Shown here: positions 3,985 to 21,790 of the stretch, in pieces
Numbering within the stretch: the stretch's first letter is position 1
How the letters are laid out: the number at the start of each line of letters is the position of its first letter
IMG/VR virus record: IMGVR_UViG_3300025011_000183
Coordinates: 1-25,156 of that record
Length of the DNA: 25,156 nucleotides
Strand: one strand, 5' to 3'
Origin: a virus
Notes under the pieces: generated by a model
Told to the model about the DNA's origin: nothing
What the model saw: only the letters and a program-made list of their open reading frames with translations
Database searches by the model: none
Made by a program: the position numbers and the translations under genes

Positions 3985-5925
3985 TTACCATGGACAACCA
4001 ACGTCCTTCTTTACCTCAACCCCTATATTCTTTAACCTCATTACCCCTTGAGCTAAATTTTTCCTGAAATAATCCTCTTCTTGGTAGATTGCTAAACTTG
4101 GGACAAGGACATATTCAATGGTTCCCTTGAACCCAGACAATTTGTTCTTCGCTACAATCAAGTCAACGATTGGAGAATGATGCTCCTTGCCATTTATCAT
4201 TGCGTCAATGTATTTTGTACTATCTTTATTTCGCTCACTATCGCTATGGAGTAGGAAAACTATGTCCGAATCATAATGTAGGTCAACCGTGTCCTTTAGG
4301 TCGTCAACCGTAGGAGGCTTATTTCCGTTTGGTTTTCTAAGCTCAACCGTCATAAGTACTGGGATATCGAATCTGTTTGTGATTCTCTTCATTTCCTCAG
4401 ACAATAGGGTGAATCTGTTCTTTGGTTCCGATGCTCCCCGGGATGGGGTTCGTATCTTATGGAAGTTATCAACCACCACGACCAATCTTGGATTAAGTTC
4501 ATGCAGCTTTTCGATGGTTTTTTCGATGTACCCCAGGCTATTACCGTCCATTTCATCAAGAAGGGTAAACCTGCTTAGTAGGACATCAATCATTGCTTTC
4601 CCAACCTCAAGGGTAGATAGTTTGCTCTTCTTATCTTCTTCGCTCATTTCCTTGTTATAAGTGACATGCTGTCCGATGTTTGAGACGAAGTTAATTTCCT
4701 GCATCGTTTGCATTGCCAGAAGTCGGTAATATATTTTCCTGAAATTATCATCAATCGAAAAGAATACAACTTGCAGTTCTTCGTTATTTTCAACCAGGCT
4801 TTTACATAAATTTAGTAGCCAGCTCGTCTTTCCGACATTAGAAATTGCTCCCAAAAGGTACATTCCAGGTTGTATTCCATCCAACTTGTGCATTAAGTCC
4901 TTGAATTGATCTCCTATTTTGTACCCAAGTATCCCTGTCCGGCGATACGACTGTCTGAAAAACATGTCCGCTCGCTTACTTGGACCCGAAAGTATTTCGT
5001 CTGCCGTTACCTCCGGAATAACCTCTTTTATTCTTTCTTCCTTCACCCTATAAACCTCGTTGCATCCGTCTATGGCCTTTCCTAACACAGACTGACCATA
5101 GGTTTTTCCAGAGCTAAAATGTCGTTCGTCCCATTTATCCCTGAATAATCCCGATTGCCTAAAAATTGAATCCATAGTTTGCTCGTTCGCCCCGGTCCAG
5201 AATGCCAATGAGTTACAGAATGCAAGATCGGCCTCGCTTTGGGATGATGCGTATCCTTGCCAGCTTCCGTTGTATAAATCCTTGAACTTATCTCCATTCT
5301 TACTACTCATGGCTTTTTCTAAAACGTCACCACCTCCAAGCGTTACTGTAGATGAAACTCGTTCCCTTTTTGGAGGTTCCGGCTTGTCCAAATATTTAGC
5401 GTGTATAGCCTGTATCTGCTCGTTGCAATCTGCAAGCGTTGGAGGGTGGCTAGTGAGCAGTTTACCGGTGAAGGTTAGGAAACGCCCCTCCGTGTAAATC
5501 TCTAGCCCCAGAGAGCTATTCTTGCGTCCCTTGGGTGGTAATGTTCCTCTACAGAAGATATGGAGTCCTGTCCCACTTGGGGAAATCTCAGCATAAGTAG
5601 GTAACTGTTCTAGAATCTCATCAGCCAAGGGGGATAATTCTCCCTGCTCATTTATGCAATGGTCTATGTCTATACCTACAAATGGGGGGGATAGCATAAA
5701 CCCGATGCCGTTCAAGTTGTTCTTGGCTGCATACTCCAATGCGATATTCAGGTTGCACCATGTTTCGGGATTATTGGATTGAGCCATACCCTTAGTCACC
5801 GCATTGACCGGAACTTTATCCATTCGCGTAGGATTGTCTTTGTTCTGCTTCAAGATCCATGCAACCCAATTCTTTTGTCGTTGCATTTCGGGAGGAATGT
5901 TCTTTATGAACCCTTCCTTCTTCAT
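3985..5925 (-). CDS. Primase-helicase fusion (AEP-like primase, HBD domain, DnaB-like ATPase)
   Basis: A 646-residue replicative enzyme in one chain. Residues 1-180 resemble the archaeo-eukaryotic primase fold of phage primase-polymerases, with GIDID (84-88, metal-binding aspartates) and SPSGTGLH (115-122). Residues 200-290 match the helix-bundle domain of NrS-1-type primase-polymerases (FKDLYNGSW, SQSEADLAFCNSLAFW, DSIFRQSGL). Residues 340-600 are a RecA/DnaB-type ATPase: Walker A AISNVGKT (360-367), with alanine in the first glycine position as in DnaB, and Walker B LVVVVD (481-486). It would prime and unwind at the phage fork. The ATG overlaps the upstream stop (ATGA). The upstream genes look like an initiator and a helicase loader. 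Domain calls are good; polymerase activity is not shown. Confidence 0.87.
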   Translation of the reverse strand: MKKEGFIKNIPPEMQRQKNWVAWILKQNKDNPTRMDKVPVNAVTKGMAQSNNPETWCNLNIALEYAAKNNLNGIGFMLSPPFVGIDIDHCINEQGELSPLADEILEQLPTYAEISPSGTGLHIFCRGTLPPKGRKNSSLGLEIYTEGRFLTFTGKLLTSHPPTLADCNEQIQAIHAKYLDKPEPPKRERVSSTVTLGGGDVLEKAMSSKNGDKFKDLYNGSWQGYASSQSEADLAFCNSLAFWTGANEQTMDSIFRQSGLFRDKWDERHFSSGKTYGQSVLGKAIDGCNEVYRVKEERIKEVIPEVTADEILSGPSKRADMFFRQSYRRTGILGYKIGDQFKDLMHKLDGIQPGMYLLGAISNVGKTSWLLNLCKSLVENNEELQVVFFSIDDNFRKIYYRLLAMQTMQEINFVSNIGQHVTYNKEMSEEDKKSKLSTLEVGKAMIDVLLSRFTLLDEMDGNSLGYIEKTIEKLHELNPRLVVVVDNFHKIRTPSRGASEPKNRFTLLSEEMKRITNRFDIPVLMTVELRKPNGNKPPTVDDLKDTVDLHYDSDIVFLLHSDSERNKDSTKYIDAMINGKEHHSPIVDLIVAKNKLSGFKGTIEYVLVPSLAIYQEEDYFRKNLAQGVMRLKNIGVEVKKDVGCPW

Positions 5926-6350
5926 AGAAGCTCTTCGATCTTTCGGCTTGCCTCAAGCTTTGTTAAATCATAGGTTCCCTCGTACCCCAACTTATTGAGC
6001 TTCCATATTTGCTTTTCAGTAATAGATTGCTGCCCCATATTTACCTCGATATATTCCTTGCCCTTAGAACGCTTCAGTTCTTCCTTTTCAGCATGAGACA
6101 GCTTTTCGTGTTCGATGTAGTAGGTAATCGCATCCATGAATAGGTCCTTATTCATCCCAAGGGTAAACAGTAAATCGCCATTATCGTCTGGGTATTTATT
6201 CAATTTAGATACTACGCTTATGGCAATCCCAAGTCTGTTAGTCCCCCCTAAACGTATTTGCTCAAGTATCTTGTTGCAAATCGTGCTTTTCTTATTAGCT
6301 GGGAATAAACTCACAAACTCATTCTTTTTTAAATCATCCAACATCTTCAT
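5922..6350 (-). CDS. Hypothetical replication-operon protein, 142 aa
   Basis: It is mostly helical. The C-terminal part, SITEKQIWKLNKLGY followed by DLTKLEASRKIEELL, is a short module often seen at the end of phage and plasmid replication or single-strand-binding proteins (a T-x-K-Q...L...LTK-x-EAS pattern); this is from memory and not verified. The rest (SLFPANKKSTICNKI, GTNRLGIAISVVSKL) is not recognised. AAGG lies 7 bases before the ATG, and both ends overlap neighbours as ATGA. Position between a loader-like gene and the primase-helicase suggests an accessory at the fork. Confidence 0.75.
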   Translation of the reverse strand: MKMLDDLKKNEFVSLFPANKKSTICNKILEQIRLGGTNRLGIAISVVSKLNKYPDDNGDLLFTLGMNKDLFMDAITYYIEHEKLSHAEKEELKRSKGKEYIEVNMGQQSITEKQIWKLNKLGYEGTYDLTKLEASRKIEELL

Positions 6351-6592
6351 TCACCCACCTTATCGTTACAAGCTACTGCCGAAGGATCACCCTGCCACAT
6401 CTGTTTAAAATCGGATATGTGCGGCGGCCTATTACTTTCAGAAACGTACTGCTGAACATATCTCCACATATCCTCTTTTTTGATTTTATGAATTAACATC
6501 TGCCAACGCTCAGGAGTTTTCTCTGTCATTTTCATTTCTGGATAAAAGTCAGTGATGATTTCCAGCATTGAAATAGTATCGTTTAATGTCAC
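6347..6592 (-). CDS. Helicase-loader-like protein (G39P-type), 81 aa
   Basis: A short helical protein with EIITDFYPEMKM, TPERWQMLIHKI and RPPHISDFKQMW. This resembles SPP1 G39P and related small proteins that load the hexameric helicase onto origin DNA, which typically have a YP...W...L...P-x-I-x-D pattern. The call rests on this pattern and on position between the initiator gene and the DnaB-type ATPase. The GTG start overlaps the upstream stop (GTGA), and GAGG lies 10 bases upstream. A different small replication accessory is possible. Confidence 0.6.
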   Translation of the reverse strand: MTLNDTISMLEIITDFYPEMKMTEKTPERWQMLIHKIKKEDMWRYVQQYVSESNRPPHISDFKQMWQGDPSAVACNDKVGE

Positions 6593-7389
6593 GACTTAAC
6601 ATCCTCTCTCGACTTCAATTCTTCTCTTTGCCTCCTAAGCATTGCCCTTGCATCTTCCCCCTGAAGTGGACTGGTTGACTTCTTGATGGATGAACCTTTT
6701 TCATTTAGATAGCTATCAAACTTTGTGCCAAACAATGTTTCCGGCCTAAGATACTTTTCGTGTTCAGTTCCAGTCCAACTAGACACCTTGTTATCAATAA
6801 CCTTTTTAAAATTATCTAGCCTGTATCCATCTTCCCATCTTGCATGAATCAGAGTTCTTATGGAATTTCCGCTAGACCTATAGGAAGATTTAGTCTGCAG
6901 GTTAAGATAGTCCACTATTTCCACATAGGGTATTTTATTTATAGAAGTATCACTAATAGAAGTATCTTTGTTATGCGATTCATGCGTAAGGCTTGTGCGT
7001 TCTGTGCATAAGCCCCCTTGTGCGTTCTGTGCATAAGGGTCATAGTCTTGCAGATTATCCAACTTTTCAGTAGGTGATACATAGGAGAAGTTTCCCTTTT
7101 GCCCATGTCTTGTTTTTTCTAGAACCCTTAATAGGAGATGCTCTTTTCCATATGATTCGATTCTACTCATTAGGTATCTTTTTTTCCCTATAATAGGTAT
7201 TTGCTTAGCTAGATATGTGTAGTTAATCCATACGTACTTAATTCCATCGAAATCTTTGAATTCCATTGATGCCGAGGAGTACATATCCTTTATAGTCCTT
7301 AATATTAAGGCATCATTCATGCATAACCCGTTCTCTATTAACTTCTCTTGTTGAAACCCTAAGACTGTGTATTTCAATCTTGTCACCAC
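6589..7389 (-). CDS. Phage replication initiator (winged helix plus Phg_2220-type C-terminal domain)
   Basis: First gene of the leftward replication operon. Residues 1-95 look like a winged-helix domain of phage replisome organisers (NDALILRTIKDMY, IKYVWINYTYLAKQIPIIGK). Residues 100-150 are a low-complexity linker. Residues 152-235 match the conserved phage C-terminal domain seen in DnaD/RepO-like proteins (VDYLNLQTKSSYR, WTGTEHEKYLRPETLFGTKF). It probably recognises the lytic origin and recruits the loader and helicase. The DNA encoding the linker carries two 21-bp repeats (6992-7037), so the origin may be inside this gene, as in lambda O. Two successive GTG codons can start it. An extended -10 promoter lies about 20 bases upstream. 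Confidence 0.8.
   Translation of the reverse strand: MVTRLKYTVLGFQQEKLIENGLCMNDALILRTIKDMYSSASMEFKDFDGIKYVWINYTYLAKQIPIIGKKRYLMSRIESYGKEHLLLRVLEKTRHGQKGNFSYVSPTEKLDNLQDYDPYAQNAQGGLCTERTSLTHESHNKDTSISDTSINKIPYVEIVDYLNLQTKSSYRSSGNSIRTLIHARWEDGYRLDNFKKVIDNKVSSWTGTEHEKYLRPETLFGTKFDSYLNEKGSSIKKSTSPLQGEDARAMLRRQREELKSREDVKS
6992..7037. repeat. Two 21-bp direct repeats with DnaA boxes; candidate lytic origin
   Basis: The 21-base unit beginning CTTGTGCGTTCTGTGCAT occurs identically at 6992-7012 and 7017-7037, a period of 25 bp. Because 25 is not a multiple of three, the initiator gene reads the two copies in different frames (AQNAQ in one, CTERT in the other), so the constraint is on DNA, not protein. 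Each copy contains TTATGCACA on the minus strand, a DnaA-box match, within an imperfect palindrome. An 11-bp repeat (ATAGAAGTATC at 6941 and 6956) lies beside it. Confidence 0.65.
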
Positions 7390-19128: not shown

Positions 19129-19335
19129 TTACACCGTTTGGAACAGGCAGGCAACTTCGATCTCAAGGGCTTCAGCTACCCTTCTTAGCGACCTTAAACT
19201 TGGATCGCACTTATCATTTTCAATATCGCTCAGAGTGTTACCCTTGAGCTTTGCGCGTTCCCCAAGCTCGCTTAATGTCCATGCTTTCTTATTTCGATAT
19301 TTACGAACTTGGCTGCCGATTGTCAATTCATCCAC
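19129..19335 (-). CDS. Cro-like XRE-family regulator, 68 aa
   Basis: A single XRE helix-turn-helix domain: IGSQVRKYRNKKAWTLSELG, then KLKGNTLSDIENDKCDPSLR and LRRVAEALEIEVACLF. It has no other domain, as in Cro proteins. It is divergent from the larger XRE gene at 19552, which is the classic layout of a temperate phage switch. GGGGG lies 3-5 bases before the ATG. Its promoter (19403-19431) has a palindrome filling the spacer, so it is probably repressed by the 19552 product. Which of the two acts as lysogenic repressor is inferred from layout only. Confidence 0.85.
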   Translation of the reverse strand: MDELTIGSQVRKYRNKKAWTLSELGERAKLKGNTLSDIENDKCDPSLRSLRRVAEALEIEVACLFQTV

Positions 19336-19352
19336 CCCCTTTTAAAGTAATA

Positions 19353-19370
19353 CCGAATACTTGGTTTCGG
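19353..19370. promoter_or_regulatory. Inverted repeat upstream of the Cro-like gene
   Basis: CCGAA and TTCGG flank an 8-base spacer, between the Cro-like promoter and its start codon. A second TTTCGGAAT lies at 19448. It may be a regulator site in the leader; evidence is only the short symmetry. Confidence 0.35.
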
Positions 19371-19402
19371 AGTTCTAGACCATTAATCTATAACATATGC
19401 TT

Positions 19403-19431
19403 AGTATATATCGGTGACGGCGATAAATCAA
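19403..19431 (-). promoter_or_regulatory. Promoter of the Cro-like gene with palindrome in its spacer
   Basis: On the minus strand TTGATT (19431-19426) and TATACT (19408-19403) are separated by exactly 17 bp. The 17-bp spacer itself (19409-19425) is TATCG-N7-CGATA, an inverted repeat with 5-bp arms. A repressor bound there would block RNA polymerase directly, so this is a strong candidate for the main lytic/lysogenic operator. Confidence 0.7.
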
Positions 19432-19458
19432 GCATAAATATAGCCTATTTCGGAATAA

Positions 19459-19487
19459 TTGTAAAAATATTTAGTTTCAGTTATAAC
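19459..19487 (+). promoter_or_regulatory. Probable promoter of the XRE repressor gene
   Basis: TTGTAA and TATAAC are separated by 17 bp, about 65 bases before the 19552 start. It is divergent from the Cro-like promoter, with about 28 bp between the two -35 elements, so one operator could affect both. Another weaker candidate lies 22 bases downstream. Confidence 0.55.
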
Positions 19488-19526
19488 GAACATGTGTAAA
19501 TGAGAATACTAATAATTAGATAATAC

Positions 19527-19551
19527 TTTACATGGATGGAGGATATGTAAA
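19527..19551 (+). promoter_or_regulatory. Hairpin that holds the repressor's ribosome-binding site in its loop
   Basis: TTTACAT (19527-19533) and ATGTAAA (19545-19551) are perfect 7-bp inverted arms ending directly at the ATG of the 19552 gene. The 11-base loop contains the GGAGG. It could act as an RNA element controlling translation or as a DNA operator. Confidence 0.5.
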
Positions 19552-19935
19552 ATGGACTATGGTCACAAAATTAGATATATAAGAGAAACTGTAAGAGGAA
19601 TGACGCTTGCCGATCTGCGCGACTTAACAGGTTTTTCCTTGTCTTATTTGTCTGATGCAGAAACAGGAAAAAGCAACATGTCGATTAAGGCATTGGAAAA
19701 AGTAGCTACAGCGCTTGGAGTTGACTCTGCCTATCTCCTAGACAACAACATCATGTCTCTCCGTAAACTCACCGAGTTAAACAACGTTGATCTACCGGAT
19801 GATGTAATAGAGTTCTTCGCCAAACAGGAAAGCTTGCCATACGCTATGTTGGCAAAGGACTTGTACAACGAGCAAATTGACCCCATATTCCTCCGCGATC
19901 TCCTAGAGACTATAAAAAAAATGAAGTCTAAATGA
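19552..19935 (+). CDS. XRE-family transcriptional regulator, probable lysogenic repressor
   Basis: Residues 1-62 are an XRE helix-turn-helix domain (GHKIRYIRETVRGMTLADLR, FSLSYLSDAETGKSNMSIKA, LEKVATALGVDSAYLL). Residues 75-127 form a small helical tail (DDVIEFFAKQESLPYAMLAK, FLRDLLETIKKM), shorter than a lambda CI cleavage domain and without a self-cleavage motif, so induction would not be by RecA-type autoproteolysis; the antirepressor at 17704 may do this instead. The SD is GGAGG within a hairpin loop. A strong terminator follows. Divergent layout with the Cro-like gene supports the role. Confidence 0.85.
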   Translation: MDYGHKIRYIRETVRGMTLADLRDLTGFSLSYLSDAETGKSNMSIKALEKVATALGVDSAYLLDNNIMSLRKLTELNNVDLPDDVIEFFAKQESLPYAMLAKDLYNEQIDPIFLRDLLETIKKMKSK

Positions 19936-19941
19936 ATATTT

Positions 19942-19986
19942 AGAGAGTATCCAATCGCAATACATCGGATACTCTCTTCTTTTTGT
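19942..19986 (+). terminator. Rho-independent terminator after the repressor
   Basis: AGAGAGTATCC pairs with GGATACTCTCT (11 bp, 14-base loop), followed by TCTTCTTTTT. It separates the repressor transcript from the replicon-like block downstream. Confidence 0.9.
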
Positions 19987-20092
19987 ACATTTATGCACAT
20001 AAGGAAATATATAGTCGGAAATATAGTTTTTGTTACCCCCTTAATACAAAGGAGGGATATTGTATCATGGGATAAGAAAGGAAGGTTTGCGG

Positions 20093-20206
20093 ATGATTAT
20101 TGAAATGGATTTAGGCGGATTCTTTAAGTGGATAGTCGTTGATAATGACCTGACCATACTCGATCCTCGGTATCTCCATGAGTTCGTTACTTATTTTTTT
20201 AGCTAA
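20093..20206 (+). CDS. Small hypothetical protein, 37 aa, upstream of the rep leader
   Basis: The ATG has AAAGGAAGG 7 bases upstream. The product is MIIEMDLGGFFKWIVVDNDL followed by TILDPRYLHEFVTYFFS, a compact acidic and aromatic peptide. An in-frame TTG at 20060 with AAAGGAGGG just upstream would add 11 residues. It ends about 45 bases before the antisense-target hairpin. No family is recognised; it may be a leader peptide or a small regulator of the replication unit. Confidence 0.45.
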   Translation: MIIEMDLGGFFKWIVVDNDLTILDPRYLHEFVTYFFS

Positions 20207-20248
20207 GGTAGGATAATAGATTCAACCTGTCGAATTAGGGAGAAAAGG

Positions 20249-20321
20249 AAAAACCTCTCCGAACTACCCACCGCCAAAGTGATTGTTCGAAGAGGCCCCC
20301 GACAGGAGTCTATATGTGCTT
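20249..20321 (-). ncRNA. Predicted antisense RNA (about 73 nt) against the rep leader
   Basis: A minus-strand promoter (20328-20356) would start an RNA near 20321. The RNA would end in a hairpin, CCTCTTCGAAC with GTTCGGAGAGG (10 of 11 positions paired) around a 20-base loop, followed by TTTTTCCTTTT, a full intrinsic terminator. The loop contains TTTGGCGG, which has the YUNR U-turn signature found in antisense RNAs such as plasmid R1 CopA/CopT. The RNA is complementary to the leader of the initiator gene at 20390, including one of two competing GACAGGAGT segments. This is the arrangement of pT181- and pIP501-type copy-number control RNAs. It is predicted from sequence only. Confidence 0.65.
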
Positions 20322-20386
20322 TAATTTAGTATAAAACACATTCCTACTTCTGTCATCCTTTAATTTGATTAGACAGGAGTTTTTTT
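20301..20386 (+). promoter_or_regulatory. Transcription attenuator in the rep leader
   Basis: ACTTCTGTC (20346-20354) can pair with GACAGGAGT at 20372-20380, making a 9-bp terminator stem (one G-U) followed directly by TTTTTT, or with the identical GACAGGAGT at 20301-20309, making an antiterminator. The antisense RNA covers the upstream copy, so its binding would favour termination. The downstream copy also contains the AGGAG ribosome-binding site of the 20390 gene, so terminator and translation control overlap. Confidence 0.65.
20328..20356 (-). promoter_or_regulatory. Promoter of the antisense RNA
   Basis: On the minus strand ATGACA (20356-20351) and TATACT (20333-20328) are separated by exactly 17 bp, 5 of 6 matches in each hexamer. 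It points against the rep gene, with no minus-strand ORF downstream before the terminator at 20253. Confidence 0.7.
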
Positions 20387-20389
20387 ATT

Positions 20390-20785
20390 GTGCAAATTCC
20401 AAAAATGTCAACAGAGTACAAGTCTGACCTACTCATACATGACGGGCACTTGGTTGTTATTCAGGAGAGGCTAGTTAAGGTTCTGGGGCTTGATAAGGCT
20501 GTCTTTGTGCAGAAGTTACACTATTGGCTCAACACGGAGTCAGGGGTCATTATAGAGCGTAGGAGATGGGTATGGAATACTTATGAGCAATGGCACAAAC
20601 AGTCCCCGTGGTGGTCGGCAATGACAATCAGGAGGATGATAAAAGATCTTGAGGGATTAGGGGTAGTTGTAAGTGTAGAATTAAATGGAGATAAAGGCGA
20701 CCATACTAAGTGGTACACCATAGATTATGGCAAACTTAACGAGCTATGGAATGCCTATTTAGAGAAGAATAGTGAGCATCTATAG
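20390..20785 (+). CDS. Replication initiator-like winged-helix protein (Rep), 131 aa
   Basis: GTG start with AGGAG 10 bases upstream, inside the attenuator; an ATG at 20405 is an alternative. The protein resembles the N-terminal winged-helix domain of phage and plasmid replication initiators (QERLVKVLGLDKAVFVQKLH, WVWNTYEQWHKQSPWWSAMT, IRRMIKDLEGLGVVVSVELN). It ends at TAG, yet the same frame stays open for another 38 codons through the iterons (with LIKMN, LIKMN and DQNEQ readings), so a longer ancestral protein may have been cut. Usual relatives carry a further C-terminal domain that is absent here. Control by antisense RNA and the adjacent iteron cluster support an initiator role. Confidence 0.7.
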   Translation: MQIPKMSTEYKSDLLIHDGHLVVIQERLVKVLGLDKAVFVQKLHYWLNTESGVIIERRRWVWNTYEQWHKQSPWWSAMTIRRMIKDLEGLGVVVSVELNGDKGDHTKWYTIDYGKLNELWNAYLEKNSEHL

Positions 20786-20968
20786 GGGTTTCAGGACTTA
20801 TCCACAGGGGTAGGAAACCGTCTGATCAAAATGAACAGGCAACGCCTGATCAAAATGAACAGGCCGTCTGATCAAAATGAACAGATCTACATACATAAAT
20901 AACTACTCATAAATAACCTTTACATATTATCTTATTAATAAGTTATCCACAGGAAAGGTTGTGCATAA
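20786..20968. other. Candidate replication origin: iterons, DnaA boxes and AT-rich segment
   Basis: The gap between the Rep-like and Par-like genes holds a DnaA box TTATCCACA at 20798, three iterons (20822-20884), an AT-rich stretch (20885-20942) with the 10-bp repeat CATAAATAAC at 20894 and 20908 and the palindrome CTTATTAATAAG at 20931, then TTATCCACA at 20943 and TTATGCACA (minus) at 20960-20968. This is the layout of an iteron-type plasmid origin: initiator sites, DnaA sites and an unwinding element. Confidence 0.7.
20822..20884 (+). repeat. Three 17-bp iterons
   Basis: CTGATCAAAATGAACAG occurs identically at 20822-20838, 20846-20862 and 20868-20884, with centre spacings of 24 and 22 bp, close to two helical turns. 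TGATCA in each is palindromic. They lie right behind the Rep-like gene and are probably its binding sites. Confidence 0.8.
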
Positions 20969-21515
20969 CATGGATTTAACCCTAAAACAGATAGCGGAAA
21001 GAGTTGGAATCGGAGCAAGCCTTGCTGCCTTCTACCGTGATCGCTTTGAAGAATATCTAAAAGTATCAGGAGAAGGCCGACACCGTAAGTATGATGAGTC
21101 AAATATTGAACTATTCCTGCTCGTTGCCAAGCATTATAAAGATGGGCTTGATTACGAGCAAATAAAGCAGGACCTTGACAAAAAGTATGGATACGCTATA
21201 CCTAATTCAACCGAGTTGATGGAAAATAACAGAACAAAAGTAGTACAACAGGAAGATTTAGCGCAGAATATCCGCCATACTCTACTCGAAGAACTAGCTA
21301 AACAGAACCACATTATACTCAAACTTCAAGATGAACTTGAGGACATGAGGGCAGAATTCGATAAAGGATTCGTAAAGCTCTACGAGAAAGCTGAGGATAG
21401 CCGCAGGAGCGCAGAGAGCAGAGACGCTGAAGTGCTACAGAAGCTCAACGATATCAAGTTGATACAGCAGCAACGCAATAAAAAACCCTGGTGGAAATTC
21501 TTCAGCAAAAGCTAG
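20961..21515 (+). CDS. MerR-type HTH plus coiled-coil protein, Par/RacA/DUF3967-like
   Basis: Residues 1-70 are a MerR-like helix-turn-helix (LTLKQIAERVGIGASLAAFY, then a GRHRKYDESNIELFLLVAKH segment). Residues 95-170 are a long coiled coil (LLEELAKQNHIILKLQDELE). The end, LQKLNDIKLIQQQRNKKPWW plus KFF, resembles DUF3967-type proteins of Bacillus plasmids and phages. The architecture equals that of RacA and of pSK1 Par, single-protein DNA-segregation factors, and the gene follows an origin, so a partition role is likely but inferred. The GTG start at 20961 has AGGA 6 bases upstream and overlaps a DnaA box; ATG at 20970 is an alternative. Confidence 0.75.
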   Translation: MHNMDLTLKQIAERVGIGASLAAFYRDRFEEYLKVSGEGRHRKYDESNIELFLLVAKHYKDGLDYEQIKQDLDKKYGYAIPNSTELMENNRTKVVQQEDLAQNIRHTLLEELAKQNHIILKLQDELEDMRAEFDKGFVKLYEKAEDSRRSAESRDAEVLQKLNDIKLIQQQRNKKPWWKFFSKS

Positions 21516-21558
21516 TCATATTTCCTGCAAACTCCCATAAACATATATCAACTTGATA
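21452..21558. repeat. Two copies of the palindrome TATCAA-N-TTGATA
   Basis: TATCAAGTTGATA (21452-21464) lies in the end of the Par-like gene, and TATCAACTTGATA (21546-21558, extended to 8-bp arms at 21544-21560) lies just before the ribosome-binding site of the 21575 gene. Two perfect 12-bp-specified palindromes 94 bp apart are very unlikely by chance. They are probably binding sites for the ribbon-helix-helix product or a centromere-like site. Confidence 0.6.
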
Positions 21559-21574
21559 TAAGGGAGGTTGCTCC

Positions 21575-21790
21575 ATGGAAAAGAAAAAGAAGCCGGCACT
21601 AATTCACTTCTCCACCCCACTCTTGAAGGATTTAGATGCTTATGCAAAGGGCTGCGGGATCTCACGTAATGCTGCAGTTAATTTAGCCTGCTCAGAATTA
21701 CTAGGAGAAACAGAACGATTGAAGGAAGAGGCTGACCGATTGCGCTCCCTTGTGATAAAGTTAGCAATGTCAAAGGGGGAACAAGCGTGA
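21575..21790 (+). CDS. Ribbon-helix-helix regulator with coiled-coil tail, 71 aa
   Basis: Residues 8-45 fit a ribbon-helix-helix domain (PALIHFSTPLLKDLDAYAKG, CGISRNAAVNLACSELL); residues 48-65 form a short coiled coil (ETERLKEEADRLRSLVIKL). GGGAGG lies upstream of the ATG, preceded by the palindrome at 21544. It probably represses its own operon. In a replicon block such proteins act in copy-number or partition control, for example CopG, Omega or ParG; which one is unknown. It is coupled to the following membrane-protein ORF (GTGA). Confidence 0.8.
   Translation: MEKKKKPALIHFSTPLLKDLDAYAKGCGISRNAAVNLACSELLGETERLKEEADRLRSLVIKLAMSKGEQA

Follow-up and report, generated by a model that had tools for sequence, protein, structure and literature searches.

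A likely antisense-controlled attenuator leader shared by exchangeable replication initiators in phage DNA

The window—by which we mean the whole stretch of DNA analysed here, a 25,156-nt IMG/VR virus record—is a phage fragment whose control region has, on its minus-strand side, genes for a CI-like protein and an ORF6N antirepressor. The plus strand carries, in order, an XRE regulator, a 37-aa ORF, a leader, rep, a MerR-like gene, and a ribbon-helix-helix-like gene (Table 1). Because a separate minus-strand operon encodes a second initiator (6589-7389) and a primase-helicase (3985-5925), the plus-strand replicon is an extra one.

Table 1. Genes and sequence elements of the control region and replicon, in window coordinates
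Feature	Position	Strand	Basis or remark
XRE/HTH_3 regulator	19552..19935	+	Pfam HTH_3, 6.9e-9
Candidate sense (rep) promoter, TTAATA-16-TATCAT	20041..20068	+	Inferred; score 9/12, not above shuffle expectation
37-aa leader ORF	20093..20206	+	Recognisable in relatives
S1, CCTGTC (20226-20231) plus conserved GAATTAGG	20226..20239	+	Pairs with S2 or S4
Predicted antisense RNA, ~73 nt	20249..20321	-	Promoter and terminator positions; transcription inferred
Antisense terminator hairpin H	20254..20295	-	Followed by TTTTTCCTTTT; fold, covariation, wobbles
S2, GACAGGAGT	20301..20309	+	Covered by antisense RNA; pairs with S3 (antiterminator) or S1
Antisense promoter, ATGACA-17-TATACT	20328..20356	-	Score 10/12; -35 overlaps S3
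S3, ACTTCTGTC	20346..20354	+	Pairs with S2 or S4
S4, GACAGGAGT plus T6 (20381-20386)	20372..20386	+	3' arm of attenuator terminator
rep, 131-aa O/DnaD-like initiator, N-terminal winged-helix part only, GTG start	20390..20785	+	PHROG 6493, 5e-28
DnaA box, TTATCCACA	20798..20806	+	After rep stop; kept in relatives
Three iterons (TGATCAAAATGAACAG)	20818..20884	+	Candidate Rep binding sites
Second DnaA box, TTATCCACA	20943..20951	+	3' of AT-rich stretch; kept in relatives
MerR-type HTH and long coiled coil protein	20961..21515	+	Structure prediction, structural matches, homologues
Small Arc/ribbon-helix-helix-like protein	21575..21790	+	PHROG transcriptional repressor, 1e-5

The candidate sense promoter leaves a leader of ~315 nt and is weak on paper, which counts against our main reading; its TTGTATTATA/TTGTATCAT-like -10 region recurs across many relatives. 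The XRE protein is placed as CopR is in pIP501 (PMC5703833), and by this analogy it may be a Cop-like repressor of the rep promoter—the role is inferred. In several relatives (L003, L278, L280, and L314) the leader ORF, upstream of the leader, is longer and has a hydrophobic C-terminus. Structural matches of the predicted MerR-like protein model include the RacA DNA-binding domain, and homologues occur on small Brevibacillus, Niallia, and Priestia plasmids (Bacillota); a sequence search against solved structures gave no match. One possible role, again inferred, is that of a single-protein partition factor. Two copies of a TATCAAnTTGATA palindrome (21451-21464 and 21546-21559) flank the stretch where the MerR-like gene ends and the ribbon-helix-helix gene begins, and could conceivably form a partition or operator site.

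The label Rep, given in a first-pass annotation, holds only in a broad sense: the product is an O/DnaD-like phage initiator and not of the pT181 or pIP501 type. It has no Pfam match, only O/DnaD-like families being matched, and it did not meet the tests for a PriCT_1-type RepR initiator (pIP501/Inc18), a Rep_trans (RepC) rolling-circle initiator (pT181), or a RepA_N initiator (pSK41-type). A search of the genome collection for close Rep relatives found the nearest at ~50% identity, mostly in Bacillaceae. In the candidate origin downstream, the iteron sequence differs among relatives, whereas the DnaA boxes and AT-rich stretch are retained. The rep frame also stays open past its stop through the first two iterons (20786-20880; GVSGLIHRGRKPSDQNEQATPDQNEQAV), as if rep formerly ran on into a C-terminal part; in the type C and D initiators described below, repeats are located inside the gene.

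Within the leader, ACTTCTGTC occurs once in the window, at 20346, and can pair with either of the only two copies of GACAGGAGT, at 20301 and 20372; only the second pairing is followed by T6. The first-pass annotation had claimed as much, and these claims held; it had overlooked S1, the Shine-Dalgarno sequence (SD) inside S4, the downstream origin, and the family of relatives. Since S1 can pair with S2 or S4, the attenuator is one of four segments, and S1 is nearly invariant across relatives. The rep SD, AGGAG at 20375-20379, lies inside S4, which carries AGGAG or AGGGG in relatives; the S3:S4 hairpin can therefore affect both transcription and translation, and a comparable action on both has been described for stem-loop IV of pT181 (PMC5703833). 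A T-rich run directly follows the S3:S4 stem on its 3' side in all relatives seen, and its retention favours termination as a genuine part of the control. The elements and their conservation are shown; termination and SD occlusion are inferred from sequence alone.

The minus-strand promoter, the hairpin with its T-rich tail, and the coverage of the first GACAGGAGT copy by the resulting RNA, all proposed earlier, also held. For the predicted RNA, a 77-nt stretch folds at -28.6 kcal/mol; hairpin H was absent from a simple terminator scan, its loop exceeding the length that scan permits. All 19 leaders found (below) carry a minus-strand sigma-70-type promoter with its -35 in S3, a 17-18 nt spacer, and a TATAAT-like hexamer, and this was the leader's best-scoring promoter in the 18 given a full scan. 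In each of the 19, the predicted antisense RNA of 70-90 nt finishes with a hairpin, and in most of them a U-run comes next—the run is broken in L200, L314, and L320. Under a strict rule, the minus-strand promoter and terminator anatomy was present in 12/15 leaders and in 0/900 dinucleotide shuffles, and so cannot be put down to chance, as the first-pass annotation had judged.

Strand-specific evidence comes from the stems themselves. In stem H, 8/11 pairs have changed on both sides, and the covariation exceeds all 500 shuffles. When each distinct arm pair is counted once, H comprises 108 Watson-Crick pairs, 12 G-U pairs possible only on the minus strand, none possible only on the plus strand, and 1 mismatch; for S3:S4 the counts are 82 Watson-Crick pairs, no minus-type wobbles, 22 plus-type wobbles, and 4 mismatches. 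With wobbles this strand-specific, stem H behaves like a piece of an antisense-strand RNA and S3:S4 like a piece of the sense RNA. The pair changes in H and S3:S4 are not all independent events, yet they are spread over several positions; the MAFFT alignment (A2) misregisters some H stems, and H was also counted via hand-registered arms. This contrast in wobble pairs offers a simple test of which strand's RNA owns a hairpin. The H loop is strongly conserved, being UUGG (YUNR-type) or an equivalent in most relatives, and loops vary between groups; for pIP501, the target loop's U-turn is known to be important (reference in PMC7430163). One mark of the antisense-driven attenuator class, an antisense RNA gene opposite the leader, is present as judged by promoter, terminator, and wobbles, with transcription itself inferred.

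Switching between the alternative pairings was predicted by folding the leaders at equilibrium, with the antisense duplex itself left out. In the free window leader, S1:S4 and S2:S3 are predicted to coexist (both >0.99), and predicted folding of the growing RNA has S1:S2 forming first, S2:S3 supplanting it at ~20355, and S1:S4 following. When the antisense footprint is masked, S2:S3 is lost and S3:S4 and S1:S4 reach 0.47 each; a wider mask favours S1:S4 (0.83) over S3:S4 (0.17), and S1:S4 is likewise favoured in L010 and L280. Across relatives, S2:S3 is dominant in the free form of 10/15 leaders, 5/15 adopt the terminated fold at equilibrium in that form, and S3:S4 is at or above 0.5 in the antisense-bound form of 12/15. 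Of the checks proposed in the first-pass annotation, folding predicts the switch in most relatives, with the window's own outcome depending on the mask, and covariation supports the antisense hairpin through compensatory changes and strand-specific wobbles. The S2:S3 stem cannot be tested in the latter way: its covariation is not above shuffles and its pairing is kept mainly by sequence conservation, and for S2:S3 and S1:S4 alike covariation is uninformative because the segments hardly vary.

Relatives were sought with Rep, with the XRE protein, with a 14-mer from the loop, and with a spaced pattern; the loose 14-mer search returned many unrelated contigs, and only contigs showing the complete anatomy were retained. 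This gave 19 distinct leaders in viral contigs: window/L002, L003, L005, L006, L008, L010, L167, L186, L246, L261, L278, L280, L281, L282, L284, L200, L314, L320, and L328. Most come from one metagenome series and are not fully independent. Two divergent leaders were matched by the RNA model—L008, which lies outside the model, at E 5.7e-7, and L328, whose anatomy agrees, at E 4e-5. The same leader stands ahead of four initiator types: A (window, L003, L005, and others), B (L167, L246, L278, and others), C (L281, L282, and L328), and D (L200, L314, and L320); the L284 contig stops short of the initiator gene. Initiators A, B, and C/D have no significant mutual similarity, and C against D gives 34%. 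Near-identical leaders are joined to different initiators (A, B, and D for the window-type leader; A and D for the L005-type), so that reuse of the leader with different Reps is shown; because identity ends near the start codon, the leader recombines as one unit and the initiator as another.

Beyond these contigs, the RNA model (R1) gave no convincing leader near the more distant Rep homologues that were tried, many of which come from bacterial genome contigs (a weak match, L142, had E 0.011); an RNA-model search of 10 reference genomes, which scores only part of the candidates, was negative; and a nucleotide search of phages and plasmids gave no match. Rfam at the gathering threshold gave no countertranscript family match, and no ctRNA appeared among matches at E<=10 either. 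Relatives of the type C initiator (~50%; L308 and L309) were observed on Enterococcus faecalis plasmids of 28-33 kb and on one plasmid from Carnobacterium; these have ParA-like genes upstream, and the R1 model found no leader there.

Phage character is evident from a terminase in seven leader-bearing contigs and a P22-like portal in G005. A tyrosine integrase was not found in the leader-bearing contigs tested, except L008/L009, which carry a tyrosine recombinase, and a serine recombinase was found in none of them. One relative, G011, has a terminase and no integrase, and is probably complete and circular because it has a 127-nt direct terminal repeat; a circular assembly can also be obtained from permuted virion DNA, however, and is no proof of a plasmid prophage. 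In L282 (type C) the gene order is leader-rep-ParA-ParB-like. A further contig, G033, has CI, XRE, SbcC-like, and MBL genes in common with the window and lacks Rep, with a serine recombinase at the position held by the replicon in others. The marks of a phage-plasmid—phage structural genes with plasmid replication or partition and no integrase—are thereby met, with L008/L009 as the exception, and the plasmid prophage state remains inferred. The plasmid-like replicon of the first-pass annotation is supported by the iterons, the DnaA boxes, the partition genes, the integrase-free complete relative, and the integrase exchange.

Some further observations concern these neighbourhoods. In L327 (~4674-6233, compared with 19129-20785 of the window), a relative with the same CI-XRE pair, a large serine recombinase takes the place that leader-rep has in the others. 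An FtsK/HerA-like ATPase with an adjacent small gene lies near the replicon in L295 (12779-15307), L298 (13972-15760), and L302 (5334-7323), and in L295 the small gene matches Replic_Relax. L324 (G032; 4381-6900) has CI, XRE, and a distant MerR-like gene, without a leader (by the model) and without a type A-D initiator; it possibly harbours another replicon.

We consider it likely that this region, as a leader, sets the copy number of a plasmid-like replicon in a temperate phage through antisense-driven attenuation. The sequence evidence supports this claim of the first-pass annotation; in the absence of RNA data, expression, termination, masking of the SD, and control of copy number rest on inference. 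Weighing against it, besides the weak sense promoter, are the wider-mask fold of the window leader, the five leaders that take the terminated fold when free, the broken U-runs, S2:S3 covariation no higher than in shuffles, and the tyrosine recombinase of L008/L009. In this reading, rep mRNA would start near 20074 with a leader of the length given above. In the absence of antisense RNA, S2:S3 would pair once S3 is made and S1:S4 would pair, leaving no terminator, and rep would be transcribed. The ~73-nt antisense RNA would be made in proportion to copy number and would bind hairpin H and S2, probably beginning at the H loop—a binding pathway that is likewise inferred. Once it is bound, S3 would be freed, and the S3:S4 hairpin with its T6 would stop transcription just before rep while also concealing the rep SD. 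Reduced Rep would mean fewer initiations at the adjacent iteron/DnaA-box origin, and the upstream XRE protein may add a second, repressor-based control.

The best-surviving alternatives, both unlikely in our view, keep parts of this scheme. The first is translational antisense control, in which S3:S4 hides the SD as in pSK41 with little or no termination; it draws on the SD within S4 of relatives and on the pSK41 precedent of an 83-nt antisense RNA (PMC5703833). However, the T-rich run kept after the stem in all relatives seen is unneeded for hiding the SD, and termination and SD hiding may coexist, as proposed for pT181. The second is that the replicon serves lytic replication of an ordinary phage, the antisense RNA timing early replication and not plasmid maintenance. 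The phage O/DnaD-type initiator and the terminase and portal genes on the contigs agree with this; against it stand the separate initiator and primase-helicase in the other operon, the partition genes, the integrase exchange at the replicon position, and the failure to find the leader at the distant Rep homologues tested.

It is much less credible that the leader senses something else, such as translation of the 37-aa ORF or a protein, with the minus-strand RNA incidental. The ORF ends 20 nt upstream of S1 and is recognisable in relatives, and S1 is near-invariant, as a binding site might be; however, the H wobbles indicate selection as an antisense-strand RNA, the promoter position is kept in all leaders, and the RNA elements persist even where the ORF differs in length and sequence. 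Equally hard to sustain is an ordinary minus-strand terminator shielding the immunity region from leftward transcription, with the repeats a simple rep attenuator or terminator: minus-strand genes do lie on both sides, but a promoter directly precedes the hairpin in all leaders, the loop is strongly conserved, and the element travels with different rep genes.

Returning to antisense-driven attenuation, a bolder version is possible, though we give it less than even odds: the leader would be a transferable, four-segment, double-locked copy-control cassette that recombines with unrelated phage initiators and whose varying antisense loop would set incompatibility. If this were true, the antisense RNA would also exclude incoming related phages—an RNA-based superinfection immunity between phage-plasmids. 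How phage-plasmids set copy number has been little studied, and in the partial literature library searched we found no paper joining phage-plasmids, copy number control, and antisense. With one RNA switch, four initiator types, and an integrase at the same place in a relative, the choice between integrating and plasmid lifestyles is now directly testable, as is the way replication modules are swapped while the control leader stays constant.

Among known systems, the pT181/pIP501 logic invoked by the first-pass annotation held as a working mode; family membership failed on the initiator and Rfam tests. The system shares with RNAIII-repR and CopR of pIP501/Inc18 an XRE-type protein upstream, a leader of ~320 nt in the plasmid, an antisense promoter within the leader, and, immediately ahead of rep, inverted repeats with poly-T (PMC5703833). 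The pIP501 layout of an XRE Cop, long leader, antisense promoter, and terminator before rep is met, with the sense promoter and repressor role inferred. In contrast to pIP501, the initiator is not PriCT_1/RepR, the SD lies in the terminator, there is an extra S1, and the system is phage-borne, with one leader used with several Reps. With RNAI-repC of pT181 it shares a design that combines an antisense RNA, of 87 nt in pT181, with a pre-emptor set against a terminator hairpin; that terminator hairpin (stem-loop IV) is predicted to contain the RBS (PMC5703833). Where pT181 has the rolling-circle RepC, the phage system has an O/DnaD-like initiator, an iteron/DnaA-box origin, and no Rfam match.

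With pSK41 RNAI the shared feature is an antisense RNA, 83 nt in pSK41, acting on the leader (PMC5703833), and the inferred hiding of the SD is a further likeness; pSK41 acts on translation, however, its RNAI lying ~100 nt upstream of the start region, and the phage system has no RepA_N domain. The pPR9 chimera, with the same control region before a swapped phage-type Rep N-terminal domain, parallels the mixing of leaders and initiators and is, by analogy, an earlier instance of initiators being exchanged behind a single antisense leader (PMC5703833). In extrachromosomal mycobacteriophage prophages (RepA or RNA-based, with parABS), a plasmid-type replicon and partition likewise replace integration, and the serine recombinase swap in G033 resembles their exchange of integration cassettes for parABS (PMC7157519); they differ in having other replicons, and the relevant sections of PMC7157519 describe no such antisense attenuator. 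The CI RNA of phage P4, an enterobacterial satellite able to exist as a plasmid, is a phage small RNA that prematurely terminates a replication operon; it is processed from the leader itself and not made from an opposing promoter. New in the present system are its occurrence in phages, the extra segment S1, and the reuse of the leader with four initiator types.
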